DNA of 34,123 bases from a virus. The notes beneath the pieces are model-generated. The model was not told where the DNA came from. It did not search any database and saw only the letters and a list, made by a program, of their open reading frames with translations. The stretch spans positions 1 through 34,123 of IMG/VR virus record IMGVR_UViG_3300033149_001263; one strand, given 5' to 3'. A program made the translations under genes and the position numbers. The number at the start of each line of letters is the position of its first letter. The first letter of the stretch is position 1. Positions 1-18,621 of the stretch are shown piece by piece.

Positions 1-621
1 AAATACCTCGGAATTTTTGACAATATTATCCACAATGAGCCGCACGCATTGGTTGTTGTTGACTCTTTCTCTGCATTGGCGGCAGAATCAGAACTGGTCG
101 GAGACATCAGCGACCACCAAGTAGCTGCCATGAACCGCTATCTTGCCAAGTTTACCAGAAGATTCGCTAATGTTTTGCCAATCAATCGGGTTACATTGGT
201 AGGTATCACACACTTGATGGCGAACATCCAAAAATTTGGAGCAGGAAAAAGTAAAATAGAGAAGTCAGGAAGTGCATTAAAGTATGCACAAGATGTGAAG
301 TTATGGGCAACTCATAAACAGCCCCTGCTGCAAGGCGAAACACAAATCGGGCAAAAGGTGAATTGGATCGTAGAAAATTCTGCGATTGGACCGCCTGGCC
401 AAAAGGTTACTAGCTACATCAAATATGGTCATGGCCTGTGGAATGAGTATGAAGTCGCAGAACTAGCAAAAGACTTTGGAATTGTAGAAGGAAAAACTTG
501 GATTACGCTTCCCAATGGCGAGAAGCTTCAGGGGATGGTAAACTTTGCCAAGTATCTAGAAGAAAACGACAATGCTTATTCTGATATCAAATCTCAAGTA
601 TTTGAAATGCTAGGAATGTAA
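1..621 (+). CDS. RecA/UvsX-like recombinase, C-terminal part (cut by window edge)
   Basis: The reading frame is open from base 1, so this is the C-terminal 206 residues of a longer protein; the start lies outside the window. The hydrophobic strand ending in Asp-Ser (ALVVVDS, visible residues 16-22) fits a RecA-family Walker B. The following helix and the THLMANI segment fit the part of the core that holds the DNA-binding loops. RecA/UvsX proteins form filaments on single-stranded DNA and drive strand exchange, in phages mainly for recombination-dependent replication and repair. The next gene begins at the stop codon (1-base overlap) and encodes a nuclease, so this looks like a recombination operon. 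The Walker A motif cannot be checked. The family is fairly sure; RecA versus UvsX is not resolved. Confidence 0.82.
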   Translation, partial: KYLGIFDNIIHNEPHALVVVDSFSALAAESELVGDISDHQVAAMNRYLAKFTRRFANVLPINRVTLVGITHLMANIQKFGAGKSKIEKSGSALKYAQDVKLWATHKQPLLQGETQIGQKVNWIVENSAIGPPGQKVTSYIKYGHGLWNEYEVAELAKDFGIVEGKTWITLPNGEKLQGMVNFAKYLEENDNAYSDIKSQVFEMLGM

Positions 622-1028
622 TGAAAGTTAGAGATCTTGAAGGAAATCTGTCCAGCTTTAAGCTAAAGGGGAGTATAATTACAGCGGCAGACAATCGGGC
701 AAGATCCAAGCTTCATATACAAGCAAGGGAAATATTGTATGAATTGTTCCCCACAATGCAGATACTAGAAGAAGTCCCAATCAAAACCAGACCGAATCAG
801 AACCAGTTCCTTGATTTCTACATTAACAAAATCAAGTTAGCTGTTGAAGTTCACGGTCAGCAGCACTACAAATTTAATAGTCTATTCCATGCGTCAGCGC
901 AGGACTTTTTAAAACAAAAGAAAATGGATCAAGACAAAAAAGAGTGGTGCGAACTAAACAACATTACATATATAGAACTTCCGTTTAACGAGGTTAAGGA
1001 ATGGAAAAAAACGATAATACAGCGTTAA
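621..1028 (+). CDS. Vsr/DUF559-like PD-(D/E)XK endonuclease
   Basis: This 135-residue protein carries the pattern of the very short patch repair/DUF559 endonuclease fold: Asp65 in LDFYI, then Glu76 and His78 in AVEVHGQQHY. It has a basic, helical N-terminus. Such proteins cut DNA or branched DNA, and in phages they often sit beside recombination genes as repair or resolvase-type enzymes. The start ATG overlaps the recombinase stop by one base. The 3' end overlaps the next gene by 28 bases, so the two are probably translationally coupled. It could also be a free-standing homing endonuclease, but no NUMOD or HNH motif is visible. The fold assignment is good; the substrate is unknown. Confidence 0.7.
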   Translation: MKVRDLEGNLSSFKLKGSIITAADNRARSKLHIQAREILYELFPTMQILEEVPIKTRPNQNQFLDFYINKIKLAVEVHGQQHYKFNSLFHASAQDFLKQKKMDQDKKEWCELNNITYIELPFNEVKEWKKTIIQR

Positions 1029-1486
1029 GCAGAATGCGTCATGTTGATGATGCATTAGATCAATATGAAAAAAGCATTGGTCTTCCTGAGTTCTCTGAGG
1101 ATGCAAGCAATGAAGATGTAAAAAAATATCTGGAAATGACAAGAGAGCAAATGGAATTGCTCAGTATTGAAGATTGCGCCCAAGCAGCTTTGATGCTTTC
1201 TGGGTATTGCTTTTATTTACAGAGATGCTACAATAGAGAAATCTCTAGAATCAATTGGGCCAAAGGGGTTTTGAATAAGCTTATATCTGGAACAGAAGCT
1301 CAGTACAGAGGTTCTTGGGATAGTCAATACCACCAAGCTATAAACAATAATGATTATGCAAAGAAAGTTCTAACACTAAAAAATTATGCCCAGCAAAGGG
1401 CTGATAGGTTGACATTTCTGGCAACTTCTGTTAGAAACATCTCTGACCTATTAGTAAACTTACAAAGAGCAAAGGCGATGAAATGA
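1001..1486 (+). CDS. Unknown helical protein; candidate recombination mediator (UvsY-like role)
   Basis: The 161-residue protein appears mostly alpha-helical: an acidic N-terminal region, a central segment rich in Tyr, Gln and Arg (FYLQRCYNREISRINWAK), then a C-terminal helix with heptad-like hydrophobics ending in basic residues. No catalytic motif is visible. Size, helix content and position right after the recombinase recall the phage recombination mediator UvsY, which loads UvsX onto SSB-coated DNA. The resemblance is one of layout and length, not a clear sequence match, so the role is inference. The start follows GAGG with 7-base spacing inside the preceding gene, and its stop overlaps the next start by four bases. 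Confidence 0.5.
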   Translation: MEKNDNTALSRMRHVDDALDQYEKSIGLPEFSEDASNEDVKKYLEMTREQMELLSIEDCAQAALMLSGYCFYLQRCYNREISRINWAKGVLNKLISGTEAQYRGSWDSQYHQAINNNDYAKKVLTLKNYAQQRADRLTFLATSVRNISDLLVNLQRAKAMK

Positions 1487-1920
1487 ATAAAAAAGAATTG
1501 ATAGCTAGAATACTTGAAAAGATGGATGAATCTGATCTTCAAGAAATTTTAGGTGTTGAAGAAGAAGATAAGGTCTCGCAGCACGAAATAAAACCAAAAA
1601 GGCGAGGCAACGGATATAATAAAAAAAATAAAAGACCAAGAGGAGAACGAAAAGAACAAAGTAAAATAGAAGAAGGAGGAACCAAGTTTGTCAATAAGTT
1701 TGACGACATGTTGAAGAACATGCAACTAACCTCCGCTGAAAAGGAAGAGTTCAAAACTCTTGAAAAAATAGACGACGCTCCTGCGAGACAGAAACCAAAA
1801 AGAGAATCTTCATTAGTAGAAGCTCAATGTACGGTCTGCAATAAGAAGGAGACAGTTTCACGAAGTTTGATAGTTGGCGACCGTTACAGATGTAATAGTT
1901 GCTGTTGCAATGCGAGGTAA
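1483..1920 (+). CDS. Basic linker protein with C-terminal zinc ribbon
   Basis: 145 residues. The N-terminal 30 residues form an acidic helix, followed by a strongly basic stretch (about residues 37-60, Lys/Arg/Asn-rich) that probably contacts nucleic acid or is disordered. The C-terminus has CTVC followed about 20 residues later by CNSC, a zinc-ribbon pattern. The gene overlaps its predecessor by ATGA, so it belongs to the recombinase operon. I do not recognise a named family. A role in binding DNA or recruiting a replication or recombination partner is plausible but not shown. Confidence 0.6.
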   Translation: MNKKELIARILEKMDESDLQEILGVEEEDKVSQHEIKPKRRGNGYNKKNKRPRGERKEQSKIEEGGTKFVNKFDDMLKNMQLTSAEKEEFKTLEKIDDAPARQKPKRESSLVEAQCTVCNKKETVSRSLIVGDRYRCNSCCCNAR

Positions 1921-1922
1921 TT

Positions 1923-2249
1923 ATGAAATTTATACAAGAAATTAGAGAATACTACCCACACTATTTGAGCCTGCACCAAAACCCTATTTGCAGACTTCTA
2001 CATGTGGCTGGGCAATTAGCTACACTGGCTACGATAGCTTTGATTATTTACGGCTGTATTTATTGGTCATTGTTTTTTCTTCTGCTAGTCCCAGTGGTCC
2101 CATTTGTAGTATACCCATTTGCTTGGAGCGGCCATTTCTATTTTGAGAAAAATAAACCTGCCGCTTTTAGTAAGCCGATATATGCTAAAATCTGTGATTG
2201 GATTATGTTTTTTGAAATCTTGACATTTAGAATTAAGTTTTGGAGGTAG
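1923..2249 (+). CDS. Mpo1/DUF962-like membrane protein (putative 2-hydroxy fatty acid dioxygenase family)
   Basis: 108 residues from ATG 1923, chosen over an upstream in-frame start because GAGG lies about six bases before it and the frame then just follows the previous stop. The sequence fits the DUF962/Mpo1 family: an N-terminal LHQNP (His18), LLHVAG (His27), a hydrophobic hairpin at residues 32-64, then the C-terminal signature SGHFYFEKNKPAAF with His71, Glu75, Asn77 and Pro79. Yeast Mpo1 is an iron(II)-dependent dioxygenase that degrades 2-hydroxy fatty acids at the ER membrane, and the conserved histidines are thought to bind the metal. All three are present, so the phage copy may be active on membrane lipids. 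It sits oddly between a zinc-ribbon gene and the replicative helicase. Confidence 0.78.
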   Translation: MKFIQEIREYYPHYLSLHQNPICRLLHVAGQLATLATIALIIYGCIYWSLFFLLLVPVVPFVVYPFAWSGHFYFEKNKPAAFSKPIYAKICDWIMFFEILTFRIKFWR

Positions 2250-2252
2250 GAA

Positions 2253-3707
2253 GTGGTATTATCAGATCAAGTAGCAGAGAAAGCAGTCTTAGCTGGCATA
2301 TGTAAATATGGGGTTGAGGCTTATTATGATGTTTCTGATCTGATTAGCTCTTCTACTTTTACTTCGGATTCTAACTCGGTTATTTATAGCTGTGCAAAGA
2401 AGCTACTAGAAGAAGACGAAGCAAGAAAGATAGATCTTGCGTCTATTATGTCTGTGGCTAAAGAGCTTAATTTGCAAGACTTCTTTAACAACAATAATCA
2501 AATTAGCCATCTTTCTACAGTAATAAAATTCCCAGTCCTGCATGAAAACGTAAGACAGTTTGCTGCTAAAATTCGCAAGCTAGAAATAGCTAGGATGATG
2601 CATCAGCAACTCGGAGACACGCAGAAAAAATATACTGATATAAAAGGCGATGAGCCTATCTCTTACATCCTTGGCTTGGCAGAAGAATCAATATTTGACT
2701 TTACCTCTCTATTGAATGACCAAGGTGATGAGCCAGAACTTCTATTCGGAGACTTGGATGATTATCTAAAAGATAGAGAAGAAAATCAAGTGGATCAGAT
2801 TGGCATCCCTACAGGCTTTCCAAAATACGATTATGCTATTGGAGGAGGTCTGCGTAGAGGTACTGTGAATGTGATCGGCGCAAGAACAAAGGTTGGTAAG
2901 AGCTTGATTGGTCTTAACTGCGGGGCAGACATTGCCAAGCGAGGAGTTCCTATTCTTTATCTAGATACGGAAATGACCAAGCAAGACCAGCAGAATCGTG
3001 GTGGCTCAATGGCTTCATATGGCACAAATGCCAAATCCACAATCAATGATATTGAAACGGGTAAATTTTCGCATAATGACTTTAGAAAAAATGCGATGTA
3101 TGAACTTGCCGATGAATATAAAGGTATTCCATTCTATCATAAAAACATTGGCGGCAAACCATTTGAGGATCAGCTTTCCATCATGAGACGATGGATTGCT
3201 AGAACTGTTGGTTTGAATAGCATGGGCAAAGCCAAAGACTGCGTTATTATCTATGACTATCTCAAATTAATGGAAGCCTCAGAACTAGCAAAAAGCGACC
3301 TAAAAGAATTCCAGCTTTTAGGATTCATGATGACTGCGTTGCATAACTTTGCGTTGAAATACGAAGTTCCTATCCTTAGTTTTATTCAGCTAAATAGGGA
3401 TGGTATAGATAAAGAGTCTACATCTGCGGCAAGTGGCTCCGACAGAATCATGTGGCTATGTTCTAATTTCACTATCTATAAACCTAAAAGTGATGAAGAA
3501 ATAGCTCAGGACGGTCCAGAGAATGGCAATAGAAAGCTTGTTCCTATTATCGCTCGTCATGGCGAAGGGCTTGAAAGCGGAGATTATATCAATGTTCTAA
3601 TGAAAGGCAATTATGCAAAGCTCATAGAAGGGCAAACAGCATTTGAGCTTGATCAAGGAGGTTCCTACACTGAAGAAGGTGGGGACGAAGAAGATGTCGC
3701 ATTCTAA
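2253..3707 (+). CDS. DnaB-like replicative DNA helicase
   Basis: 484 residues with a GTG start, supported by GGAGG seven bases upstream. The N-terminal helical domain (about residues 1-130) resembles the DnaB N-domain. The RecA-like motor follows: Walker A GARTKVGKS at residues 209-217, a DTEM segment after the next strand, and Walker B VIIYD ending at Asp335. DnaB-family helicases form hexameric rings that unwind the fork 5'-3' on the lagging strand and contact the primase, whose gene overlaps the end of this one. The C-terminal tail is acidic and Gly-rich. Length is close to cellular DnaB. Confidence in family and role is high. Confidence 0.9.
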   Translation: MVLSDQVAEKAVLAGICKYGVEAYYDVSDLISSSTFTSDSNSVIYSCAKKLLEEDEARKIDLASIMSVAKELNLQDFFNNNNQISHLSTVIKFPVLHENVRQFAAKIRKLEIARMMHQQLGDTQKKYTDIKGDEPISYILGLAEESIFDFTSLLNDQGDEPELLFGDLDDYLKDREENQVDQIGIPTGFPKYDYAIGGGLRRGTVNVIGARTKVGKSLIGLNCGADIAKRGVPILYLDTEMTKQDQQNRGGSMASYGTNAKSTINDIETGKFSHNDFRKNAMYELADEYKGIPFYHKNIGGKPFEDQLSIMRRWIARTVGLNSMGKAKDCVIIYDYLKLMEASELAKSDLKEFQLLGFMMTALHNFALKYEVPILSFIQLNRDGIDKESTSAASGSDRIMWLCSNFTIYKPKSDEEIAQDGPENGNRKLVPIIARHGEGLESGDYINVLMKGNYAKLIEGQTAFELDQGGSYTEEGGDEEDVAF

Positions 3708-4857
3708 ATGGAAATATGGTGATTATACTAAGCTAAATTATCTAGCTAAATTAGTAGCCGACAACATTGAAGAACTGTATGAATACTTCAATGTCAAATA
3801 TTACGTGAATGAAAAGATGATCATATCTAATTGCTTCATTCATGGGGGCGATAACATGACTGCCCTCAACTTCTACCATAATTCAGAATATAAATTTCAT
3901 TTCGCTTGCAGAACTCATGGTTGTGAAAATCATTTTAAAAACACAGCGATTGGTTTTATTCGTGGCGCTTTGTCTAATGTTAGGCATGGATGGGAAAAAG
4001 TTGGCGATAAAGAAGTGACATTCAATGAGACTATTGAATTTTTGTTAGAGCAATTTGATCTAACTTGGGATAGCATAGACACTAGTAAAGATCTTAACCT
4101 TGACATACCTACTGAAAAAAAGATTGAGCGACAATCTCAACAAATACAAGAAGCTCCTGTGCCTAAGTTTGAAAGAAGTTATTATAGAAGCAAGGTGCAG
4201 ATACCTTCAGATTATTATCTTAAAAGAGGGTATAGTATAGAAGTATTGGACGATTATGACATTGGAACTTGTAAAAGTTGGGGTAAACCACTATACAATC
4301 GTGCAGTAGTTCCTGTATATGATGATAAGGGCGAATTTATCATCGGTTTTTCTGGTAGGAGTATATTTGATAAGCAATGTTCTAAGTGTAAAAATTGGCA
4401 CGACCCTGATAAAAAGTGTCATTTTTTTCCAAAATGGCGTCATTCTAAAGGCTTTAGAAAAGATAAATCGTTGTATAATTATCATAAGGCCAAAAAACAT
4501 ATTAAAGAAACTGGTATTGCTATTTTAGTTGAGTCGCCAGGCAACGTCTGGAGATTAGAAGAAGCAGGTATCCATAATTCTATGGCTATTTTTGGAACCT
4601 ACTTTTCAACTTATCAAAAACAATTAATAGATGCCACTGGAGCTTTGACCCTTGTTCTCTTGATGGACAATGATGAAAACGGAGCAGGGCAAGAAGCAGC
4701 AGAAAGAATCAAGAGTCAGTGTGAAAATACATATAGAGTGTTTATTATAACACCAGATAAAAATGATATAGGTGATATGAGTACAAACCAAATATCAAAA
4801 GACATAGAACCATTAATAAATAAAACTATAAAGGTATATGGAGAAATTACATAATGA
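3694..4857 (+). CDS. DnaG-like primase with zinc-finger and TOPRIM domain
   Basis: About 387 residues from ATG 3694, preferred to a TTG at 3643 because it is ATG and has a GGTGGGGA stretch upstream. The N-terminal part has a Cys/His cluster, SNCFIHGG then about 30 residues later CRTHGCE, resembling the DnaG zinc-binding domain. A TOPRIM core lies near residues 265-330: ILVESPGN with the catalytic Glu, and LLMDNDENG with the acidic Asp-x-Asp. A second Cys cluster (QCSKCKNW) precedes the core. The enzyme makes RNA primers for lagging-strand synthesis. The gene begins inside the end of the helicase gene, as expected for a primosome pair. The frame closes at TAA just before the next start at 4854. 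Confidence 0.85.
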
Positions 4858-5606
4858 CACAGATCGTAGGATTTTTAGGAAGAAAGCAAAGCGGCAAAGA
4901 TACTTCGTGTAATTTTTTGACTATGCTTAAACTATTGGAGCATGGAGTATGCAAAAACGCCAAAATAAATGATGATGGGCGTATTGAAGTAAGCGATATA
5001 TTCGGAGAGACTGTTGAGGGTCAAACATGGATGACATTCCAAAAACCTATGGTAAATACCAAAGCAGTGCTGTCTGATCTCGGCGCTATTAAAAGTTATA
5101 GTTTCGCCAAGCCGCTCAAAAAAGACATTTGTATAAATCTATTGGGCCTTACCAAAGCGCAGTGCTACGGAACAGATGAAGAAAAAAATACAGAAACACA
5201 TTTGCGTTGGGAGGAAATGCCCCTTAACGGAGGGCGTAAAGGCAATATGACAGCCCGTGAAGTAATGCAGCATGTTGGAACAGATATATTCAGATCAATG
5301 TATCGTAATATATGGGTTGATTGCCTCCTGAGAGAAATAGAAAAGGATGGCTACAAAATGGCGGTCTTGTCAGATGTCCGTTTTGACAATGAAATAAAAG
5401 CAATTCAAGCACAGGGAGGCATAATTATTGGTCTTACTAGAGACAAGCTAGAAAAATCAGATGGGCATTCTAGTGAGCAGCCTAACTTTGATTTATGCGA
5501 TCATGTTATTGACAATAACGACATGTCAATACCAGATCAGAATAAAGAAATTTATTTTGCATTAAAGAACCTAGATTGTCAGCACTTAACTGATTTAGGA
5601 GTATAA
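4854..5606 (+). CDS. Deoxynucleoside monophosphate kinase
   Basis: 250 residues. The P-loop GRKQSGKDT occupies residues 9-17, directly after the first beta strand (IVGFL), as in T4 gene 1-type dNMP kinases. Further along are the SFAKPLK segment, the REVMQHVGTDIFR segment and LSDVRFDNE, all typical of that family. It phosphorylates dTMP, dGMP or hydroxymethyl-dCMP-type nucleotides to diphosphates, so it would feed the phage polymerase together with ThyX encoded further right. An insertion of about 50 residues after the P-loop helix (residues 35-85) is longer than in compact NMP kinases. It overlaps the primase end and abuts the next gene with no gap. Confidence 0.85.
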   Translation: MTQIVGFLGRKQSGKDTSCNFLTMLKLLEHGVCKNAKINDDGRIEVSDIFGETVEGQTWMTFQKPMVNTKAVLSDLGAIKSYSFAKPLKKDICINLLGLTKAQCYGTDEEKNTETHLRWEEMPLNGGRKGNMTAREVMQHVGTDIFRSMYRNIWVDCLLREIEKDGYKMAVLSDVRFDNEIKAIQAQGGIIIGLTRDKLEKSDGHSSEQPNFDLCDHVIDNNDMSIPDQNKEIYFALKNLDCQHLTDLGV

Positions 5607-6677
5607 ATGGGAATCCCAATCGTATATTTTAGAAGTAGTTCTTTCAATACACATAGAACATGTCCTATGCAATTCTATGCGGAATACACTTTAGGATTAA
5701 GAGGCAAGGGAGGAAAAAAAGCAGACAAGGGGACGATTACTCATAAAATATTGGAAATATGCGCCCTCTCAAAGAAAGCAGAGCAAGATGGTGTCACAGT
5801 AATAAATGATTCGGAAATAGGCGAAGTTATAACTAATAATTATGACGAAGACTATCTTGCAAGCATAGGGACCAGAGTTTATGAATATTACACATCAAAC
5901 TTTTCACACCATACTTGGACGGACAGAGATTTTAAAGACTGCCTAAGCTGGGCTTGGAAGGCTCTTAAATATAAAGACGGTCTATACGATCCTAGAAATA
6001 GAAATATAGTAGAAGCAGAGCCTCATTTTGATTTTCAAATCCCTCACGATTGGGCCGCTTATGAATATCCAGAACACGATTTAAAAGGAAATCTAGCATT
6101 AAAGGGAACTATTGACCTTATTACAGATGTCGGAGATGGTGTCTATGAAGTAATAGATTGGAAGACAGGCATGAGAAAGGACTGGGCCACAGGTAAAGAG
6201 TATACTCAAGAGAACCTGTTCAATAATCCCCAGTTAAGATTGTACCATTATGCTTGTAAAAACCTGTACCCCGACGTACATACCTTCCTGATTACTATAT
6301 ATTTCATTAATACAGGAGGTCCGTTTACGGTTCATTTCCAAGATTCAGATCTAGAGAAAACAGAAGAAATGATTCGTAAAAGGTTTGAAACAATTAAAGA
6401 AACTAAAATGCCCCTAACCATCAAAGAGACAGACAGAAAAAGCTGTTGGAAATGCAGTAAGATTTGTCATGCGGGCAAAAACACCTTTGAAGATACGCAT
6501 GTCGAGCCTTTAGTTGAAAAAAGATTTAATCAATTTACTAAATATGGCGATACTATGACACAATGCGAACAGCTTAGGTATATGATAAAGAAGAAGGGCA
6601 TTGACTGGGTGACTAAACATTACAAGCACCCAGATCATGTTCATGGTAAATACAAGGCGCCTGGGAGTACAGAATAA
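5607..6677 (+). CDS. Cas4/RecB-like PD-(D/E)XK exonuclease with Fe-S cysteines
   Basis: 356 residues. Motifs occur in the order of Cas4/AddB/RecB-type nucleases: an early cysteine in RTCPMQF (Cys19), GTITHKILE with the first-motif His, LKGTIDLI with the metal-binding Asp, and YEVIDWKTG with Asp-x-Lys. Near the C-terminus CWKCSKIC supplies Cys280, Cys283 and Cys287. One N-terminal plus three C-terminal cysteines is the pattern that clamps a 4Fe-4S cluster in this family. The enzyme probably resects DNA ends, producing single strands for the recombinase encoded upstream. There is no helicase domain, and no CRISPR array or other cas gene is in the window, so a CRISPR role is not supported. Confidence 0.82.
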   Translation: MGIPIVYFRSSSFNTHRTCPMQFYAEYTLGLRGKGGKKADKGTITHKILEICALSKKAEQDGVTVINDSEIGEVITNNYDEDYLASIGTRVYEYYTSNFSHHTWTDRDFKDCLSWAWKALKYKDGLYDPRNRNIVEAEPHFDFQIPHDWAAYEYPEHDLKGNLALKGTIDLITDVGDGVYEVIDWKTGMRKDWATGKEYTQENLFNNPQLRLYHYACKNLYPDVHTFLITIYFINTGGPFTVHFQDSDLEKTEEMIRKRFETIKETKMPLTIKETDRKSCWKCSKICHAGKNTFEDTHVEPLVEKRFNQFTKYGDTMTQCEQLRYMIKKKGIDWVTKHYKHPDHVHGKYKAPGSTE

Positions 6678-7045
6678 TGCGTGTTATTATAGCTGGTGGA
6701 AGTACATTTGATTCCTTAGACTATATGAACAGATGTTTAACTACCGTAAAGAATGAAATTGATGCGGTAATTGCGGGCCGTGGATATGGGGCCGATAATT
6801 TAGCAGAAATATTTGCAGTGCAGAATGGACTTGATTTAGAACTTTTTCCTGCGAATTGGGGTAGATACGGCAAGGAAGCTGGCTATAGAAGATGGTTGAA
6901 AGTATTTGAAGACCAGAACATAGACAGAGTATTTTTGTTTTGGAATGGGAAAAGTAAAGGGACAAAAGTCCTGAAAGATTTAGCTAAAATGCTTGACATT
7001 CCTTGTGATATGTTTTATTATGAAGATTCACTTTTGGAGTTTTAA
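6677..7045 (+). CDS. DUF2493/SLOG-family Rossmann protein
   Basis: 122 residues. The start MRVIIAGGSTF, the central AVIAGRGYGADNLAE and the segment FPANWGRYGKEAGYRR match the DUF2493 (YspA-like) branch of the SLOG superfamily. These are small Rossmann-fold proteins thought to bind nucleotides or nucleotide-derived ligands and related to DprA/LOG enzymes. The biochemical role in phages is not established; proposals include nucleotide metabolism and ligand sensing. The start codon overlaps the nuclease stop by one base (TAATG). Cys113 and the acidic C-terminus are not part of a known motif. The family call is good; the function is open. Confidence 0.78.
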   Translation: MRVIIAGGSTFDSLDYMNRCLTTVKNEIDAVIAGRGYGADNLAEIFAVQNGLDLELFPANWGRYGKEAGYRRWLKVFEDQNIDRVFLFWNGKSKGTKVLKDLAKMLDIPCDMFYYEDSLLEF

Positions 7046-7186
7046 ATGAAAAAAATATTTGCTATTCTGTCAATTGTTTGTATAATGGTATGTAATTCTG
7101 GTTGTATGATTGTAGTGCATAGGCATCAGCAAAAAGATATAGAACAGCCTATTCCTAATAAAATTCATGGTGGTGTGTCCACCTAA
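7046..7186 (+). CDS. Small lipoprotein-like peptide (46 aa)
   Basis: The ATG directly follows the previous stop and is preceded by TTTTGGAG at good spacing. The 46-residue product starts MKKIFAILSIVCIMVC, a lysine-led hydrophobic signal, then NSGC with Cys20 as the likely lipidated residue. Gly at -1 and Ser at -2 fit a lipobox; Asn at -3 is less usual. The mature part would be only about 27 residues with several His, Gln and Pro. Small phage lipoproteins can be outer spanins (Rz1) or superinfection factors, but no partner Rz gene is nearby, so no function is assigned. The stop codon ends one base before the first paired base of the tmRNA acceptor piece. Confidence 0.65.
   Translation: MKKIFAILSIVCIMVCNSGCMIVVHRHQQKDIEQPIPNKIHGGVST
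7059..7086 (+). promoter_or_regulatory. Possible sigma-70-like promoter for the tmRNA
   Basis: A perfect TATAAT at 7081-7086 lies 16 bases after TTGCTA (7059-7064, four of six matches to TTGACA). Transcription would start near 7093 inside the lipoprotein gene and give the tmRNA precursor a short 5' leader to be trimmed. In an AT-rich genome such matches arise by chance, and the tmRNA may simply be cut from operon transcripts. Confidence 0.25.
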
Positions 7187-7311
7187 ACTTGTAGACATTA
7201 TTGTTGATGTCGTGATGGACATCGGGGCAGTACCGATCACGTCCACTCCCAGTCAGACGCAAAGGGGCGTGAACTAGATTCGACATGCGATATGATATAA
7301 TAATTGCAAGT

Positions 7312-7348
7312 GTTGGTTGATCTAAGGGCCAACTAAAAAATAGATCAA
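7312..7348 (+). other. tmRNA pseudoknot PK1
   Basis: H-type pseudoknot. Stem 1 is GUUGG (7312-7316) with CCAAC (7329-7333). Stem 2 is UUGAUCUA (7317-7324) with UAGAUCAA (7341-7348), all 8 pairs Watson-Crick. Loops are AGGG and UAAAAAA. It starts at the base after helix P2 and ends 10 bases before the resume codon, as PK1 does in known tmRNAs (11 bases in E. coli). Confidence 0.9.
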
Positions 7349-7358
7349 AACTTTAAAT

Positions 7359-7388
7359 GCTGAACCTTGTTTAGCTTTGGCAGCTTAG
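7359..7388 (+). other. tmRNA tag reading frame, AEPCLALAA-stop
   Basis: Resume codon GCU (7359-7361) starts a frame encoding Ala-Glu-Pro-Cys-Leu-Ala-Leu-Ala-Ala and UAG (7386-7388). The C-terminal ALAA is the ClpXP/ClpAP degradation signal of bacterial tags. Bases -5 U and -4 A before the resume codon match E. coli. An in-frame start further left (AAA 7347) would give a 13-residue tag but falls inside PK1 stem 2, so GCU is preferred. A cysteine in a tag is unusual. Confidence 0.85.
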
Positions 7389-7404
7389 TGTTGTCTGGGG
7401 AGTT

Positions 7405-7436
7405 GCCCGTCCTTATTACCCAAACGGGCTTATTTA
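7405..7436 (+). terminator. Rho-independent terminator after the tmRNA coding piece
   Basis: GCCCGT (7405-7410) pairs with ACGGGC (7424-7429) around a 13-base loop and is followed by TTATTTA. It closes the tmRNA gene before the RBS of the beta-helix gene. The hairpin could also stay as a 3' stem of the mature coding piece. Confidence 0.7.
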
Positions 7437-7457
7437 TTATAATTAATGGAGTGTCAA

Positions 7458-9485
7458 ATGAATATTATTATTGATCAACAATGGTTGGATGAAAATCAAG
7501 AAGAATGGGGCGGCTGGAGATTGGGTGAAGAAGGAGCTACATACATTCTTGAGACGGACGTAGCTGCTCCACGAACCGCCTTTGCTATTGGTGCGGACAA
7601 TATCACATTAGACATTCAAGATAAAATTGTAAAGTTCGGATGCGAAGCTGAAATCAGAGTTCCTAATTTTGATTTTGAAAATCGTATTAGGGGTTGGAGA
7701 GACATTAATGGTGAAGATCCGATATGGCACACTAATTGCGAATACATAAAGCAAGAGTGTCAAACTGGAGATTCCGCAATAACAATTCCAGAAGTTGAAG
7801 CCGGTAAAGAATATAGGATTAGAACTCAGCAATCATTTGAATTAAAAGCTGGAAATTACTACGCTTTAAATCATTGGGACATAAGAAGGCCAGCAAATAC
7901 AAAACTTCCCAAGTGCCAAGTTCGTGTGCAAATCGGAGACTTAGATCCTGCTGTTGGACCGAAGAGAGACAAGCCCGGCACTACTAATTACTCTATCTTC
8001 ACCCCTTCTGAAGATATGGTTGGTAGGATCAGCTTTTTTATAACAGTTCCAGAAGATGCAGAAGAAGCAGGCTTCTATAGAATGGACAATGTTTTACTTT
8101 CTCATAGTCGCTGTCACGGGATCACAGGGAGAGGAAGCAGCAACCATTGGAATAATAAAGCCCCAGACTTGCCAATTGACACTGACTATAAAAGAGCGCT
8201 ATACGGATTCACTCTAAAGTCTTCTGCTGGAAGCAAAATCGTTCAAGGTGGCGCTGGATTTGGTGGGTGTTGTATTAATCTTAGATCATCTAAACAATGT
8301 AACATAACTGGCCCTGTATATTTAGCAACACACCCAAGAAGTGTCAATGAACATATGGGAAAATGTATGCAGGCTATGTATGCTACAGATTTGACCATTA
8401 GCCCAGAAGTAAAAACAAACAATCAAGCTATTGCTAATTGTAACAGGCAACAGCATTGGGGGTTCAATACACAAGCAAAAGTGATGCAGGGCAATTGTAG
8501 TATCGGGATCAATTCTATTAGTTCTAATCAAGGCGCTGCTAGTGTTGGTCTAAAAAAAGATAGCGACGGAACATTGATTGTAACAGGAAACGGAAAAGCA
8601 GAAACAAGATTTACTAATGGTTTTTTCTTGATGGTTCAAGAAGGCGGTCCTGACAGTAGCATAATTGTAGAAGATATAACTGTTCGTAATGGTGGTAAAC
8701 ATGGCGGCAGAGGCATCCATTGGCAAGGATATGGGACAGAATCTTATGGAGTTAATACAATTAGAAATTGTAAAATCACCACCCAAGAACTTGCTCTAAA
8801 TCAAGAATATGGCGTTAATAATAATGGCTACACTTTAGGAGGCTGTTATGGTATACAAGTAGAGAAGATAGCCCACAATTTAGTTATAGACAATAATGTT
8901 ATTTCCGTTAGGGGCTTGAGTGAATCTTCCGCATATCGCCTATCCACCCACAAAGATCAAATTTATACATTATCATGTACGGCAACAAACAATACTTTTG
9001 AAGCGATGCACAGTGATGTTGCTAACATAAAAGAACATATCGGAGGCAAACGGGCTGCTGTATTCAAACCATATGGGATCAATGGCGATACTTTAGGTCC
9101 ACAAAAAGGAAATAAATTTGTATTCAATGATTGCTTAATTAATTTTGAAGGTTATAATACTGGTACAATTTTGTTTGAAGATACAACGATAGAATATGTA
9201 AACGAAGGATCTCCAAACGAAAGCGCGTATCATTTGTCATATAAAGGTGGCGGCTCGGTTGAATTCAGGAACACAACATTTGTCGGCCCTGACACGCTTG
9301 AAAAACTAACAAAGAAAGTAGATATCACTCCGAATTTGAATCATATCGGATCAGATATTACAGTAAAATTCACAAATGCAGATGGTGAACCCATATATAT
9401 GCTTCATATAGATGCCGAGACAAAAGTAACAACACATACATATTATGATCTTTCAGGGAATCCACATTATACGTGGAACAGGTAA
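7458..9485 (+). CDS. Right-handed beta-helix protein (pectate-lyase-like), possible tail spike or fibre
   Basis: 675 residues from ATG 7458; GGAG six bases upstream decides this start over ATG 7446. From about residue 230 to 620 the sequence is a chain of short beta-strand repeats rich in Asn, Gly, Thr and Ile (SIIVEDITVRNGG, VNTIRNCKIT, LVIDNNVISVRG, KFVFNDCLINFEG, TILFEDTTIEY, SVEFRNTTFVG), typical of parallel beta-helix domains. The N-terminal 230 residues look like a separate beta-sandwich. There is no signal peptide. In phages such folds occur in tail spikes and fibres that bind or cut surface polysaccharide. No catalytic residues can be assigned. It lies right after the tmRNA terminator and opens a new transcription unit. 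Confidence 0.68.
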   Translation: MNIIIDQQWLDENQEEWGGWRLGEEGATYILETDVAAPRTAFAIGADNITLDIQDKIVKFGCEAEIRVPNFDFENRIRGWRDINGEDPIWHTNCEYIKQECQTGDSAITIPEVEAGKEYRIRTQQSFELKAGNYYALNHWDIRRPANTKLPKCQVRVQIGDLDPAVGPKRDKPGTTNYSIFTPSEDMVGRISFFITVPEDAEEAGFYRMDNVLLSHSRCHGITGRGSSNHWNNKAPDLPIDTDYKRALYGFTLKSSAGSKIVQGGAGFGGCCINLRSSKQCNITGPVYLATHPRSVNEHMGKCMQAMYATDLTISPEVKTNNQAIANCNRQQHWGFNTQAKVMQGNCSIGINSISSNQGAASVGLKKDSDGTLIVTGNGKAETRFTNGFFLMVQEGGPDSSIIVEDITVRNGGKHGGRGIHWQGYGTESYGVNTIRNCKITTQELALNQEYGVNNNGYTLGGCYGIQVEKIAHNLVIDNNVISVRGLSESSAYRLSTHKDQIYTLSCTATNNTFEAMHSDVANIKEHIGGKRAAVFKPYGINGDTLGPQKGNKFVFNDCLINFEGYNTGTILFEDTTIEYVNEGSPNESAYHLSYKGGGSVEFRNTTFVGPDTLEKLTKKVDITPNLNHIGSDITVKFTNADGEPIYMLHIDAETKVTTHTYYDLSGNPHYTWNR

Positions 9486-9976
9486 TGATAGAAATTGAAA
9501 TCAAACCCGAATGGGTTCATAGGGCTTGGGACAAGGCGAGGAAGATGGGTCGTATTCGCCATTCTATTACTGGCGGCAATGGTAATTTTGCAGGATTTCT
9601 AGGAGAAGAGATAGCAAGAGATTATCTAGGTGTTGAAAGCACAAACACTTACGATTATGATCTGATTGCTGATGGTCTTAAATATGACGTTAAAACAAAA
9701 AGATGTACGTCTCCTCCGTCACCCAGATACGATTGCTCCATCTATGCATACAATACTAAACAAAAATGCGATAGATATTTATTTGTTAGAATCCAATTCG
9801 TAGATAAAGAATGGGAAGAGCTAACTGGCAAAGCATGGATATTGGGATATTACGAAAAAGAAGATTTCTTAGCGAACGCTAGATTCTTAAAAAAGGGATC
9901 TCTAGACGGTTTCAATAAATTTAAAGTGATGGGCGATTGCTACAATATGAAAATATCGGAGTTGAAAACACTATGA
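9485..9976 (+). CDS. PD-(D/E)XK-type nuclease, phage
   Basis: 163 residues from ATG 9485, which overlaps the preceding stop by one base (TAATG) and is preferred over an upstream in-frame start inside the beta-helix gene. The motifs are GFLGEEIARDYLG (helix with Glu), TYDYDLIADG (Asp) and KYDVKTKR (Asp-x-Lys), the order expected of a restriction-endonuclease-like core. After that comes a Cys/Tyr-rich segment and a beta-rich C-terminus. Similar small phage nucleases are annotated as Holliday-junction or homing-type enzymes, but the substrate cannot be read from the sequence. It overlaps the next gene by ATGA. Confidence 0.62.
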   Translation: MIEIEIKPEWVHRAWDKARKMGRIRHSITGGNGNFAGFLGEEIARDYLGVESTNTYDYDLIADGLKYDVKTKRCTSPPSPRYDCSIYAYNTKQKCDRYLFVRIQFVDKEWEELTGKAWILGYYEKEDFLANARFLKKGSLDGFNKFKVMGDCYNMKISELKTL

Positions 9977-10161
9977 AACATTTAAAAGATCATAATATGA
10001 GCTATTGTCAGCATCTAAAATTTGCTTTTTTTGTAGGATTTTCCATGACGGTTAGTGGATTTTGTTGTATAATTCATGGACTGTTTCCTTGTGTCTTTCA
10101 AACAGCAGCGTCAGACACAATTTCACGTTTACATGAATTATTTAAGTCAAGGTTAAAATGA
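9973..10161 (+). CDS. DUF6356-like small membrane-associated protein
   Basis: 62 residues from ATG 9973, chosen because it forms the ATGA overlap usual in this operon. The pattern is SYCQHLKFAFFVGFSMTVSG, then CIIHGLFPCVFQTAASDTI and a basic amphipathic end (SRLHELFKSRLK). It resembles DUF6356, short proteins with one conserved His-Gly-x-x-Pro segment, mostly from Proteobacteria and of unknown function. One hydrophobic stretch (about residues 17-40) suggests membrane contact. It overlaps the start of the polymerase N-half by four bases, so the two are likely co-translated. The family call is moderate and made from memory of the pattern. Confidence 0.6.
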   Translation: MKHLKDHNMSYCQHLKFAFFVGFSMTVSGFCCIIHGLFPCVFQTAASDTISRLHELFKSRLK

Positions 10162-12050
10162 GAAACTACACTCCGCTACATGTACATTCTGAATACAGCT
10201 TGCTTGATGGTCTAAGCAAATGCAGCCAAATTGCAGAAAGAACTATAGAAATAGGATCAAGCGCTTGTGCTTTAACAGATCACGGCAGCGTGTCTGGTGC
10301 TGTTGACTTTTCTAGCGAAATGAAATCCAGAGGACTCAAGCCAATCTTAGGCTGCGAACTTTATCTTGTCAAAGGCGATGCCACTGAAAAGAACAAAGAG
10401 AGCGCCAAGAAAATGAGCCATCAAGTAGTTCTTGCAAAAAACTTAGAAGGTTGGAAGAATCTTTTAAACTTGGTATCGCAAGCCAATCATGAAGAGCATT
10501 TTTATCACAAGCCAAGAATTGACCTTGAAATACTAGACAAGATGGCGTCTAGAGGCAATCTAATATCTTTTAGCGGACATCTAGGATCGTATCTAGCAAA
10601 AGCAATATCTACGGAAGACGATAGGCTTGATCCAGATTGGATGAAGAAAGGTGTGCATACTGCAAAAACATTGCAAGATATATTTGGCAAAGGTAATTTC
10701 TTTATTGAGATCCAGTTGATGGATCAGAACATCAATAAATTTGCAGGGATGGTTGGAAAATGTCTGCGTCAAATCGCCAAAGCCGCTGATATCCCATGCG
10801 TGGCTACTGCTGACGCTCATTATTGCAGAAAAGAAGATGCTGACGACCAGCGAGTATTGCTTTCTATGGCTTACAAAAAGACCATCGGAGAAATCCAAAG
10901 AGCAATCAACAATGGGACAAAAACAAAGGGTCTTGATACGTTCTTTAATTCAGATAATTATCACATACCAGACCTGTCTGAAATGCAATCTCACAACACA
11001 GAAGAAGAGCTTGCAAACACAAATTTAATCTGCGACATGTGCGAAGACTATTCTATTTTGCAACCACCGCAGCCTCCAGAATTTAAATGTCCAGACGGTC
11101 AATCTCCAGAAGAATACCTTAGAAAGCTTTGCAGAGACGGCTGGAAGAACAAGATGGGTGATATTCCAAAGCATACAGAACTATTCAACGAATATGGATC
11201 TAGAGTAAATAAAGAGCTTGATATCTTTACGTCTATTGGTCTCTCTAGCTACTTCCTTATCGTTGACGATATCTTGAATTTTGTAAGAGATAAGGGGTAT
11301 ATTACGGGGCCAGGTAGGGGTTCAGCCGCAGGATGTATGGTGTCAAACCTATTGGGTATCACGCAAGTAGATCCAATACCATATAATTTGATCTTTGAAA
11401 GATTTTATAATGCAGGGCGTAATGCGCCTGGCAAAATATCTTGGCCTGATATTGACTTTGATATTCCTAAAGCTGCTAGAGAAGAGACTATTGAATATAT
11501 CAAAAATAGATATGGAGAAAACAATGTAGGTCAAATCATTACATTCCAAACCCTAAAGGGCAAAGCTGCTCTTACCAGAGTTATGAGTGCCAGAGGCAAT
11601 ATTAGTTTTGCAGAACAAAAAGCAATCACTAAATGCCTACAAGACGAAGCCAAAGTCAGTGATGAATTAAAAGATATTGAAGAAGAATATGGATATTCCT
11701 CTAGTATCTTATGGGCTTTGGAAAACACCCCACAAAAATTAAAACAGTGGTGCTACATTGGCAAGGATGGAAAATTAGAAGGTAGAATGTCAAAGATATT
11801 TGAACAAGCTATCAGAATTGAACACACAAAAGTTTCTGCTGGCAAGCACGCTGCTGGTATCGTTATTTCAAATAATCCGATTAGTGATTCATGCCCTATG
11901 GTTATGGACAAAGATAGAAAACATTATTTGGCTGGGTTTGAAGGACCAAGCTGTGAAGAGGTTGGACTTCTGAAGCTAGACTGTCTAGCAATTAGGGGAT
12001 TAGATAAAGTTATGGACGTAGTTAATATAGTAGGAGGAGAACATGCTTAA
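10158..12050 (+). CDS. dnaE: DNA polymerase III alpha (family C), N-terminal half: PHP and palm
   Basis: 630 residues. Residues 1-260 form the PHP domain with its metal ligands in view: HVHSEYS (residues 8-14), LTDHGSV, GCELY and ATADAHY. That set is far more complete than in E. coli DnaE, so the PHP site could be an active 3'-5' exonuclease. The palm follows, with GPGRGSAAG, the catalytic pair Asp431 and Asp433 in WPDIDFD, and the third catalytic Asp608 in LLKLDCL. The protein stops 22 residues later, just where the fingers should begin. The fingers, HhH and OB parts are encoded 2.8 kb downstream. Together the halves total 1170 residues, the length of a whole DnaE. No intein motif is seen at the break. 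Confidence 0.9.
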   Translation: MRNYTPLHVHSEYSLLDGLSKCSQIAERTIEIGSSACALTDHGSVSGAVDFSSEMKSRGLKPILGCELYLVKGDATEKNKESAKKMSHQVVLAKNLEGWKNLLNLVSQANHEEHFYHKPRIDLEILDKMASRGNLISFSGHLGSYLAKAISTEDDRLDPDWMKKGVHTAKTLQDIFGKGNFFIEIQLMDQNINKFAGMVGKCLRQIAKAADIPCVATADAHYCRKEDADDQRVLLSMAYKKTIGEIQRAINNGTKTKGLDTFFNSDNYHIPDLSEMQSHNTEEELANTNLICDMCEDYSILQPPQPPEFKCPDGQSPEEYLRKLCRDGWKNKMGDIPKHTELFNEYGSRVNKELDIFTSIGLSSYFLIVDDILNFVRDKGYITGPGRGSAAGCMVSNLLGITQVDPIPYNLIFERFYNAGRNAPGKISWPDIDFDIPKAAREETIEYIKNRYGENNVGQIITFQTLKGKAALTRVMSARGNISFAEQKAITKCLQDEAKVSDELKDIEEEYGYSSSILWALENTPQKLKQWCYIGKDGKLEGRMSKIFEQAIRIEHTKVSAGKHAAGIVISNNPISDSCPMVMDKDRKHYLAGFEGPSCEEVGLLKLDCLAIRGLDKVMDVVNIVGGEHA

Positions 12051-14893: not shown

Positions 14894-16516
14894 ATGATTG
14901 AATATCCATGTGGTTGTAAATTTGAAGAAAACGAAGAAGGATTTCCTATCTTCAATCCTAATGTTGAAGCATTACCTCTTGAGTGTACTGCTACATGGGA
15001 CATGATTTGCGAAGGAAATACCAAAGGTGTTTTCCAACTAGAATCTCAGCTAGGACAAAGTAAGGCTAGAGAAGTAAAACCTAAAAGTGTTGAAGAACTT
15101 TCTGACTTGATTGCTATCATTCGTCCGGGTTGTGGTGATGCTATAGTAGATGGAAAGTCTCTTACCCAGCACTATATTGACCGTAAAGCCGGTAGGGACG
15201 AAGTTGTATACTTTCACCCGCTTCTAAAAGAAATCCTAGAAAGCACGCAAGGGATTTTAGTGTATCAAGAACAGGCTATGCAAATAGCTCAGAAGGTTGC
15301 GGGTTTCACATTACAGCAAGCAGATGCACTAAGAAAGGCTATCGGTAAAAAGAAGGTAGAGCTTATGGCTCAAGTTAAGCAGGAGTTCCTTGACGGAGCA
15401 GAGGCTCTTGGCGAAGTTACTAAGAAAGATGCAGAAGAAATTTTCTCTTGGATTGAGAAGTCTCAAAAGTATTCTTTCAACAAATCCCACTCTATTAGCT
15501 ATGCTATGAACGGATATCAGACAGCATATGCGAAAGCGCATTTCCCCAGAGAATTTTTTACATCCTACTTGATGCATTCTGATGGCAAGCCGAAGCCATT
15601 TCTAGAAATATCAGACTTGGTAAATAATGCAAGGGCGATGGATATAGATGTCCTTCCTCCTAACTTCTTGAATATGAATTCTAATTTTAGACTGATAAAT
15701 AACAACCCCACTTTTGGGCTAGTAAATATTAAGAGTGTCGGCCAGTCTGTGTACGACAAGATCGTTAAAATGTTAGAAGAAAAGAATATAGATCCTTCAA
15801 CGCTTAATTGGGATCAATTCTTAATGCGTCTTGGATTAATTATTAAGAAAGATTCATTTACTAACATGATCAAGGCTGGAGCTTTAGATTATTTAAAAGT
15901 GCATAGAAACAAAATGCTTTACGACTTTTCTATATACGAACAGTTCAGCAACAAGCATCATATATTCCTATCCGAGAATTCATTTGATACTCTAGAGGAA
16001 GGGATTCTGGCTTTGATTGAGCATGTAAAAACGTCAAAGAAACATGCTCATACTGCGAAGCATATAGAAATGCTTGAGTCCTCTATCACTTCTTTGAAGA
16101 ACCCTCCATTCAAATTGGTAGACTTTCCTTCTTGGAGAGCCAAGCAGGAGAGAGATCTTTTAGGTATTGAAATTACTTGCCACGATGTTGACGAATATGA
16201 CCTTGGAAACGCGAACTGTACGTGTAGAGAATACGTCAAAGGATTTGATAGCAAGATTATTTCTATCGCCGCGAAAGTTGATGACATTAGAGAATGGAAG
16301 ATCAGAGGAGGTCAAAATAAGGGTCAGGTTATGGCATTTCTAAAGATTGGAGACGGTTCGTCAGCTTTAGATAGTGCTACCATATTTGCTGATGATTATA
16401 AAAGATACAAAGATAAATTAGCCATAGATAAAATATTTTTGTTTAAAGGCGAAAGAGATAAAAAACGTGGAAGTTTTTTGATAAAAAAAATCCAAAAACT
16501 AGAACGATGTATATAA
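14894..16516 (+). CDS. dnaE: DNA polymerase III alpha (family C), C-terminal half: fingers, HhH and OB-fold
   Basis: 540 residues. From residue 30 it matches the DnaE region after the third catalytic Asp: TKGVFQLES, DLIAIIRPG, then the fingers segment FNKSHSISYAMNGYQTAYAK. A helix-hairpin-helix follows (FGLVNIKSVGQSV), then an OB-fold-like end (GQVMAFLKIGDGSSALDSAT). The first 25 residues (YPCGCKFEENEEGF) have no E. coli DnaE counterpart and look like an added cap with a Cys-x-Cys. This protein lacks all three catalytic aspartates, so it must assemble with the 630-residue half to work. No intein C-terminal His-Asn-Cys is present. A clear beta-clamp peptide was not found. The start follows the thyX stop with no gap. 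Confidence 0.9.
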   Translation: MIEYPCGCKFEENEEGFPIFNPNVEALPLECTATWDMICEGNTKGVFQLESQLGQSKAREVKPKSVEELSDLIAIIRPGCGDAIVDGKSLTQHYIDRKAGRDEVVYFHPLLKEILESTQGILVYQEQAMQIAQKVAGFTLQQADALRKAIGKKKVELMAQVKQEFLDGAEALGEVTKKDAEEIFSWIEKSQKYSFNKSHSISYAMNGYQTAYAKAHFPREFFTSYLMHSDGKPKPFLEISDLVNNARAMDIDVLPPNFLNMNSNFRLINNNPTFGLVNIKSVGQSVYDKIVKMLEEKNIDPSTLNWDQFLMRLGLIIKKDSFTNMIKAGALDYLKVHRNKMLYDFSIYEQFSNKHHIFLSENSFDTLEEGILALIEHVKTSKKHAHTAKHIEMLESSITSLKNPPFKLVDFPSWRAKQERDLLGIEITCHDVDEYDLGNANCTCREYVKGFDSKIISIAAKVDDIREWKIRGGQNKGQVMAFLKIGDGSSALDSATIFADDYKRYKDKLAIDKIFLFKGERDKKRGSFLIKKIQKLERCI

Positions 16517-16535: not shown

Positions 16536-16991
16536 ATGATGGATGAACTAATTGAGGAGAATATGGGTTTAGTTATATCCATAGTCAACTCATTCAAACC
16601 TAAAAATCATACTGAAAGACAGGACTTAATTGATGCCGGAAGAATTGGGTTGTGGAAGGCATTAAAAAAATACGACACAGAAAAAGATTGTAAAATCTCT
16701 ACATATGCATGGCGACCAATCCGCTGGTCAATTATAAAAGAAATAAAAAATAAGAAGAAATCTACTTCAATTAATAATATTCCTGCTCCAACAGTTCAAA
16801 ACAAAGAACAAATATGGGAGTCTCTACCTTCTGACCTTACAGAAGAAGAACGTCTATTAATAGAATTGCGATGTGAAGGATACAAGCTAAGGGAAATTTG
16901 TATTATACTAAACGAAAGATCATCAGTAATTAAAAATAGATTCTATAAACTAATCAAGAGATTAAAAGAAGACCATGCAAAAAACCAATAG
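16536..16991 (+). CDS. Small RNA polymerase sigma factor (regions 2 and 4)
   Basis: 151 residues from ATG 16536; AAGGA eight bases upstream fits this start better than the in-frame TTG at 16530. Region 2 is clear: ENMGLVISIVNSF, then DLIDAGRIGLWKALKKYD and KISTYAWRPIRWSI, the core-binding and -10-recognition helices of sigma-70. A linker follows, then a region 4-like helix-turn-helix (TEEERLLIELRCEGYKLREIC...). Region 1 and most of region 3 are missing, as in small phage and ECF-type factors. It probably directs host RNA polymerase to phage middle or late promoters. Its target promoters are not identified here. Its end overlaps the first glycosyltransferase gene by 17 bases. Confidence 0.82.
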   Translation: MMDELIEENMGLVISIVNSFKPKNHTERQDLIDAGRIGLWKALKKYDTEKDCKISTYAWRPIRWSIIKEIKNKKKSTSINNIPAPTVQNKEQIWESLPSDLTEEERLLIELRCEGYKLREICIILNERSSVIKNRFYKLIKRLKEDHAKNQ

Positions 16992-18621
16992 AAAAAAACG
17001 AATTTTATTTGTAACCGAATCACACAAACTAGCTTCTGGATTTGGTACATATGCAAAAGAGATTATTCCTAGATTATATGCTACTGGGAAGTATGAAATA
17101 GCACAATTGGTATGTTATGGAAGACCAGAAGAGTTCCAAGATACTCCTTGGTTGATGTACGGTGTTGTACCCATGAAAGGAGAAACCGAATACCAAAAAG
17201 GATATGAGAACCCAAATGTTCAATGGGGTATGGCTAGATTTGAACATGCGTGTCTTGATTTTAAACCAGATGTTGTGATATGCTGGAGAGACCCGTGGAT
17301 GGATGCTTATATAGCAGACAGTCCGTTCTTGCCATTTTTTCATTGGATCTGGATGCCGACAGTAGATAGCGCCCCGCAAAAACTTCAATGGGTTTATAAT
17401 TATTTTAGTAAGTGCGATACTCTTTTGGCATACTCTGAATATGGAATAAGAACTCTTAGCGATCAAACACAAGGAAGAGTATGTCCTGTTGGAATTGCAC
17501 CGCCTGGCACGAACCCTTCCCTCTTTGATATTGTGCCAAATAAGAACGAGCATAAAAAGAAATATGGAATCCCAGAAAACAGCTTTGTGGTGGGAACAAT
17601 CATGAGAAATCAGAAACGCAAAATGTTTCCAGAGCTTATGAAAGCTTTCAAAGAATTCTCAGAACAATCACCATTAGATTCTTATTTGTACATACACACG
17701 AGTTATCCAGAAAAGTCAGGCTGGAACATAACAGACTTAATGCATGAATTTGATTTAGGTTCTAGGTTATTGGTTACATATGTTTGTAGAAACTGTAAAA
17801 AGTTTTTTATTGACCACTACAGAGATGCGATTACTAAGTGTAATCATTGTAACGGTCTATCAGCCGTCATGCCTGGCGTGACGCAGGGCGTTGAGCGAAC
17901 AGACCTGAAAGATATTTATAACCTTATGGACATATATGTTCAATATGCGATTTGCGAAGGTTTTGGAATGCCTCAAGTGGAAGCCGCTGCGTGCGGAGTG
18001 CCTTTAGCTTCTATTAATTATAGCGCTATGGAGGATGTAGTAAAAACTGTAAACGGGTATCCTATACCTCCAAATCTACAAAGAGAAATTGAAACAAACG
18101 CAGATCGGTCCTTTTCAAACAATGATGCTTTGGTAGAAATCTTAAACAAGCACTCAAAACTAAGCCTGCAACAATTTAACGACAAAAGACTTGAGACAAG
18201 ACAGAAATGCATAGAAAAATATACTTGGGATAATGCATGTAAGTCTTGGGAGCAAGCGATAGATAATGTTGAGCTTGGCAAAAAGCTTGATTGGAATCAT
18301 CCCAGACTTTTAAGAAATTTGCCGGAAGACGCACCACAAGGAATGGACAACAGACAATTTGCAGAATGGATCGCTTTAGCATTGCTTCAAGACGAAAGCA
18401 GAGTAGCAAATTATCAAATGATGAATGATATCAAACATTTAAATTTTGGAAGCAAAGTTGACTTTGGACTAATGGGACAGTATAATCAAGAGTCGCTGTA
18501 CAAAGAGACTAGACCTGTAGCAGAAAGAAGAGTGTTCTTTGACGCTGTAAGGTCCGGAGATCAACAAATTAGCCCTCAACCATTTGTAGTAGAAGCCCAC
18601 AGGAGACTGAAAAGATCATGA
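16975..18621 (+). CDS. GT-B glycosyltransferase (GT4-like) with inserted zinc ribbon
   Basis: 548 residues. The N-terminal Rossmann half begins ILFVTESHKLASGFGTYA and contains PDVVICWRDPW. The C-terminal half has the GT4 nucleotide-sugar motif CEGFGMPQVEAAACGVP with the Glu-x7-Glu pair. Between strands of the C-terminal domain an insertion carries Cys271, Cys274, Cys289 and Cys292 in two CxxC pairs, a zinc-ribbon layout not usual for GT4. About 120 residues extend beyond the GT core. It would transfer a sugar from a nucleotide donor to a glycan, lipid or protein; the acceptor is unknown. It opens the glycan block and overlaps both neighbours. Confidence 0.82.
   Translation: MQKTNRKKRILFVTESHKLASGFGTYAKEIIPRLYATGKYEIAQLVCYGRPEEFQDTPWLMYGVVPMKGETEYQKGYENPNVQWGMARFEHACLDFKPDVVICWRDPWMDAYIADSPFLPFFHWIWMPTVDSAPQKLQWVYNYFSKCDTLLAYSEYGIRTLSDQTQGRVCPVGIAPPGTNPSLFDIVPNKNEHKKKYGIPENSFVVGTIMRNQKRKMFPELMKAFKEFSEQSPLDSYLYIHTSYPEKSGWNITDLMHEFDLGSRLLVTYVCRNCKKFFIDHYRDAITKCNHCNGLSAVMPGVTQGVERTDLKDIYNLMDIYVQYAICEGFGMPQVEAAACGVPLASINYSAMEDVVKTVNGYPIPPNLQREIETNADRSFSNNDALVEILNKHSKLSLQQFNDKRLETRQKCIEKYTWDNACKSWEQAIDNVELGKKLDWNHPRLLRNLPEDAPQGMDNRQFAEWIALALLQDESRVANYQMMNDIKHLNFGSKVDFGLMGQYNQESLYKETRPVAERRVFFDAVRSGDQQISPQPFVVEAHRRLKRS

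Follow-up and report, generated by a model that had tools for sequence, protein, structure and literature searches.

The window analysed here is the whole stretch of 34,123 bp from IMG/VR virus record IMGVR_UViG_3300033149_001263, and its segment 7187–7429 is identified as a circularly permuted tmRNA by both ARAGORN and Rfam. ARAGORN places a permuted tmRNA with the tag AEPCLALAA* at 7153–7479, and the tmRNA_permuted model of Rfam 15 (RF04321; gathering score 47) is matched over its full length at 7187–7388 with 87.8 bits (E = 9.3e-16). The alpha_tmRNA model (RF01849) aligns at 7169–7397 with 54.5 bits, just above its gathering score of 50, and covers positions 40–278 of the 355 in the model. 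Neither the beta and cyano permuted models of Rfam 15 nor, at its gathering threshold, the one-piece model RF00023 was reported for the window. The half carrying the acceptor and T-arm lies upstream of the tag-coding half, to which it is joined via the acceptor stem and P2, and the order of the acceptor strands around the tag is reversed with respect to a one-piece gene (Table 1).

Table 1. Features of the permuted tmRNA gene in the window
Feature	Position	Strand	Remarks
Upstream hairpin GGTGG/CCACC	7169–7183	+	Aligned by the alpha_tmRNA model; just 5' of the acceptor half
Acceptor half	7187–7245	+	From RF04321 alignment and covariation
P2 3' strands (three)	7187–7193, 7197–7204, 7210–7217	+	Within the acceptor half
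GGAC	7217–7220	+	Within the acceptor half
T-arm	7221–7237	+	Within the acceptor half
Acceptor 3' strand CACGTCC and discriminator A7245	7238–7244, 7245	+	Within the acceptor half
Intervening sequence (IVS) CTCCCAGTCAGACGCAAAG	7246–7264	+	19 nt; predicted to be removed by tRNA-processing enzymes
Coding half	7265–7429	+	Ends at the 3' structural element
Acceptor 5' strand GGGCGTG	7265–7271	+	First part of the coding half (7265–7358)
D-loop GATTCGAC	7277–7284	+	First part of the coding half
P2 5' strands (three)	7284–7290, 7297–7304, 7305–7311	+	First part of the coding half
Pseudoknot PK1	7312–7348	+	Stem 1, 7312–7316/7329–7333; stem 2, 7317–7323/7342–7348
Resume region	First part of the coding half (to 7358)	+	Between PK1 and the tag frame
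Tag frame GCT GAA CCT TGT TTA GCT TTG GCA GCT TAG (AEPCLALAA*)	7359–7388	+	From ARAGORN; kept in relatives
3' structural element	7389–7429	+	Helix GCCCGT (7405–7410)/ACGGGC (7424–7429), compensated in relatives

The tRNA-like domain contains the elements of alanine identity, with G3–U70 in the acceptor stem GGGCGTG/CACGTCC, the GGAC segment and the T-arm. PK1 lies upstream of the resume codon, which is followed by a hydrophobic, AA-ending tag. The CCA terminus is not encoded after A7245, where CTC is found instead. An earlier note, made from the DNA letters alone, had proposed a phage-encoded permuted tmRNA with an upstream acceptor half, three P2 segments, an acceptor stem with G3–U70, PK1 and an ALAA tag, and had suggested the Rfam models as a check; every element lies where it had been placed, in agreement with the ARAGORN and RF04321 matches and with the phage gene context. 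Its assignment of a terminator at 7405–7429 does not hold, as the helix there has no clear T-run and a terminator scan found no intrinsic terminator on the + strand of this segment. Since relatives keep this helix with compensating changes (GCCAGT/ACTGGC and GCCTCGT/ACGGGGC), segment 7389–7429 is better described as a structural 3' element, probably a terminal pseudoknot, and the coding half probably ends at 7429. The upstream hairpin overlaps the end of an ORF (7046–7186) and may be incidental. The automatic stem finder often chose other stems for the 3' element and for this hairpin, and both were read from the aligned sequences.

Replication genes flank the tmRNA on both sides (DnaB, primase, dNMP kinase, exonuclease, DnaE-type polymerase and ThyX). 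Its immediate neighbours are the 46-residue ORF at 7046–7186, which has a lipoprotein-like start and is preceded by an ORF of the SLOG family (SLOG/YspA-like; 6677–7045), and a 679-residue ORF (7446–9485) whose protein had no match in Pfam or PHROG. The neighbouring exonuclease, used as a query, retrieved 43 viral loci; these relatives are viral contigs of up to 162,690 bp, with terminase, and by its gene content the window's contig is that of a phage. Because homologues of the exonuclease and of the ORF at 9473–9976 lie side by side, with no tmRNA, in the related contig L003, we place the tmRNA in an inserted cargo block. At this position the tmRNA is missing from most relatives; searches of whole records found a permuted tmRNA in five of 27, of which one duplicates the window almost exactly and four have the gene elsewhere in the genome. 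No SmpB gene was found in 26 related contigs, which are fragments, by a search that recovered SmpB from ten of 14 control genomes, so that the phage would have to use the SmpB of its host. Annotated phages gave no match to window positions 1–12000 in a near-identity search, nor to the 679-residue ORF or the exonuclease by tblastn; a distant DNA search with the tmRNA returned only pieces of 27–31 nt, among them the SsrA of phage Melnitz. The terminase of one relative (G028) was considered as a pointer to the host, but its identity to Bacillus phages is only ∼27% and no host was inferred from it.

Several other features of these genomes were observed. The DnaE-type polymerase is split into two parts (10158–12050 and 14894–16516) with several ORFs, including ThyX, between them, an arrangement conserved across at least 21 related contigs. 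In contig L038 (6001–7983; also in L039–L041) the exonuclease gene contains an in-frame insert of ∼950 bp that is intein-like, with THN at its end, but starts with Gly (GLPTDTPIPT) where Cys or Ser is usual. The protein encoded at 27070–27588 resembles glycosyltransferase family 29 (sialyltransferase; E = 5e-20) and lies downstream of other sugar-transfer-like genes (16975–18621 and 22170–22874).

The conservation of the RNA was assessed in an alignment (A3) of ten related phage copies with the IVS excised and L045 left out; the copies are related to one another, and most of them also served to build the model R1 described below. The fold was read from the window and then scored on A3, in which 96.3% of 459 pair cells are standard. 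Changes on both sides, which the earlier note had named as a test of its proposal, occur in 27 of the 46 pairs, compared with 1–6 when the partner strand is slid; the corresponding cells number 77, compared with 23 in shuffles and 1–7 with slid partners, and the covariation score is 0.549, compared with 0.204 and 0.035–0.086, respectively. Six of the seven helices show compensatory change, P2b varying mainly on one side, and the PK1 stems are 100% paired, with compensations. The P2 segment adjoining the tRNA-like domain alternates between CAT/ATG, TCC/GGA, CTC/GAG and CTG/CAG across copies. P2 helix 1 has a lower proportion of paired cells (78.6%), probably because in some rows of A3 MAFFT places it roughly two columns off. 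Acceptor 5' strands in relatives (GGGCGTG, GGGGGTG, GGGGATG and GGGGGCG) each have a matching 3' strand, and G3–U70 is invariant in all ten copies of A3. The tag frame, a second test in the earlier note, is likewise kept: the relatives' tags ADESLALAA, ADENLALAA, ADASLALAA and AEPSFALAA have intact frames with synonymous codon changes, and tags near that of the window retain an LALAA or FALAA end. As the helices are compensated and the frame is intact across the lineage, this pattern shows, at the level of sequence, that the whole RNA has been kept under selection in phages.

The covariance model R1, built from ten A3 copies, scores phage members with a compact IVS at 158–203 bits, including four outside its building set (L206, L214, L045 and L231); scores are lower for copies with a 605-nt IVS, in which the match is broken by the insert. 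Of 398 Pseudomonadota genomes, 90 match R1, one match being the phage contig L231; the highest score outside this contig is 69 bits, and the window's tmRNA does not fall among the bacterial alpha tmRNAs. The five best bacterial matches are full alpha_tmRNAs that score 216–265 bits on RF01849, on which the related phage copies L045 and L046 score 85.7 and 75.8 bits; L048 passes RF04321 only. CCA is encoded in nine of ten parsed bacterial copies; in the phage lineage CTC or CTT stands in its place in most copies, and L045 keeps CCA. Judged by model scores rather than by a tree, the window's tmRNA thus belongs, within the alphaproteobacterial type, to a divergent branch found only in phages. No near match to it was found in bacterial chromosomes. 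A search of bacterial genomes with the tag pattern gave a single match, L231, a 6.6 kb contig (GTDB contig JAAGZR010000117.1) from an Aliivibrio MAG; it carries the tmRNA, a ThyX of the window's type and two tRNA genes, and we read it as a phage contig, and neither as a bacterial copy nor as a pointer to the host, because of this ThyX and because the MAG has its own one-piece tmRNA. A DNA pattern for the tag region led to further members of the window's own lineage.

tmRNA frees stuck ribosomes and tags half-made proteins for destruction. The window very probably holds a functional two-piece gene for such an RNA, belonging to the phage-only branch and carried by a large uncultured, probably aquatic, phage. 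Transcription would take in the neighbouring genes as well; cleavage after A7245 would fall to host RNase Z (or exonucleases) and that before G7265 to host RNase P, the missing CCA would be added by the host CCA-adding enzyme and host AlaRS would charge the RNA through G3–U70. As CCA is not encoded, maturation would depend on the host. Host SmpB and EF-Tu would then deliver the RNA to ribosomes that have stalled on broken mRNAs, where the unfinished protein would receive the tag (A)AEPCLALAA and be passed to ClpXP-type proteases for degradation. For the phage the benefit would most likely be the recycling of ribosomes during mRNA degradation in infection, independently of the host ssrA; retagging of host proteins is possible.

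That a true tmRNA would serve mainly to compete with the host system, or to retag through it, with an altered, short tag that shifts the choice of proteins for degradation, instead of recycling ribosomes appears unlikely. Selective tagging of host proteins has been raised as an idea (PMC9004378), tags within the phage lineage vary little from ADESLALAA and the window's tag has nine residues, without the longer N-terminal part of some bacterial alpha tags (ANDNSEVLAVAA and ANENRKPVLAMAA); however, bacterial tags can be short as well (ANESYAIAA in L266), an ALAA-type end is a usual signal for degradation and nothing points to an altered protease choice. The variable cargo block, the lack of a tmRNA at this place in L003 and most relatives, and a chimeric copy (L225) with mismatched P2 ends would also fit a host ssrA that was captured or belongs to an attachment site and persists in the phage without function, as a passenger or in decay. 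This is very improbable given the compensated helices and intact tag frame across the lineage, the completeness of the copy, in contrast to the 3' fragments at attachment sites, and the lack of a near match in bacterial chromosomes. Permuted alpha-type tmRNAs are normal bacterial genes, but the idea that the contig is a chromosome fragment with the host's own tmRNA is in practice refuted by the phage replication genes on both sides, the viral relatives (the longest of 163 kb, with terminase) and a score on R1 ∼100 bits above any sampled bacterial copy.

A permuted tmRNA in a phage is not in itself new, and the rarity of the two-piece form implied by the earlier note is not borne out: examples from phages, most of them aquatic, appeared in print in 2022, and in a 2021 survey the two-piece form accounted for 53 of 133 unique structures of phage tmRNAs, 50 of these being from marine or aquatic phages (PMC9004378). 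Another survey lists only 79 unique tmRNA sequences from phages, all forms included (PMC11915505), and among the matches listed for two DNA patterns, including the T-arm, more than 100 permuted tmRNAs lie on IMG/VR viral contigs. What is new is the divergent phage-only branch with its unusually plastic IVS. The ssrA of phage Melnitz (MZ577097), a permuted form also found in 17 of the 47 contigs of its cluster (PMC9004378), is likewise a complete two-piece tmRNA of an aquatic phage and related to the alphaproteobacterial type. It differs from that of the window, which lacks an encoded CCA and has a 19-nt IVS, in encoding CCA, in its IVS of 145 nt and in a glutamine riboswitch that has been reported for Melnitz; by blastn the two share no more than a 31-nt aligned stretch, and Melnitz is a T4-like member of the Kyanoviridae, whereas the window's phage has a DnaE-type polymerase. 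With the alphaproteobacterial tmRNAs (RF01849, e.g. Caulobacter) the window shares the permuted order, three-part P2, PK1, G3–U70, GGAC, the resume region and an AA-ending tag, and it differs from them in its much lower and partial RF01849 match, its unencoded CCA, its short tag and its different 3' element. No difference from tmRNA_permuted (RF04321; PMC11915505) was found in the modelled core.

The IVS of the window's lineage measures 5 (CTTAC), 13, 18–19, 40, 112 or ∼605 nt, a range which shows that the gap between the halves is loosely constrained. The 112-nt IVS (L046, 1613–1730) holds a hairpin resembling a T-arm, GATAGGGTTCGATTCCCTATC, which may be left over from a tRNA. The IVS of ∼605 nt contains a complete HNH/EndoVII-like ORF (phrog_3322, E = 2e-28) that starts ∼70 nt past the acceptor end; in L225–L227 and L229 its stop codon coincides with the end of the acceptor 5' strand. 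The acceptor half of L225 is of one P2 type and its coding half of another; this chimera looks like a recombinant, though it may be a misassembly. With the endonuclease protein as query 17 loci were found. Seven (L232–L238) place it in the IVS of a permuted tmRNA, the halves being read from the sequence, as the long insert keeps covariance models from joining them; the window's 19-nt IVS has no ORF. At six further loci (L239–L243 and L245) the endonuclease starts 70–86 nt downstream of a one-piece RF00023 tmRNA, so that its position relative to the acceptor 3' end is the same in permuted and one-piece phage genes. The remainder comprise one locus cut by a contig end (L244), one near a tmRNA in the opposite orientation (L246) and two weak endonuclease matches without a tmRNA. 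Both the endonuclease-bearing IVS and the 40-nt IVS of L045 contain CCACCTCCACCGTTTTTTGTGTATAA, and the short one has the look of a remnant.

A common position directly 3' of the acceptor end would be expected of an endonuclease that targets this end. We lean towards the reading, with some reserve, that the tmRNA acceptor end is the homing site of one HNH/EndoVII-like lineage, the permuted IVS acting as a splicing-free `intron' that tRNA-processing enzymes would excise. The window would then be an endonuclease-free allele with an endonuclease-bearing counterpart in L237, which has the window's acceptor stem and the tag AEPSFALAA. The wider endonuclease family is not bound to tmRNA, as three crAss-like phage relatives have none nearby; a group I intron is present in two of them. 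The endonucleases described for tmRNA genes are LAGLIDADG enzymes in self-splicing group I introns in the T-loop (PMC11915505); L232–L238 resemble these in having an endonuclease inside an intact tmRNA gene, and differ in that it is HNH/EndoVII-like and lies in the IVS of a permuted gene. Rfam found no intron at the tmRNA of the endonuclease-bearing relatives, and the literature searched contained no description of an HNH/EndoVII-like endonuclease at a tmRNA end. Selection on the whole RNA in phages makes its use in infection testable, and homing in both gene forms, if true, would provide a route for moving or swapping the tRNA-like domains of tmRNAs between phages.
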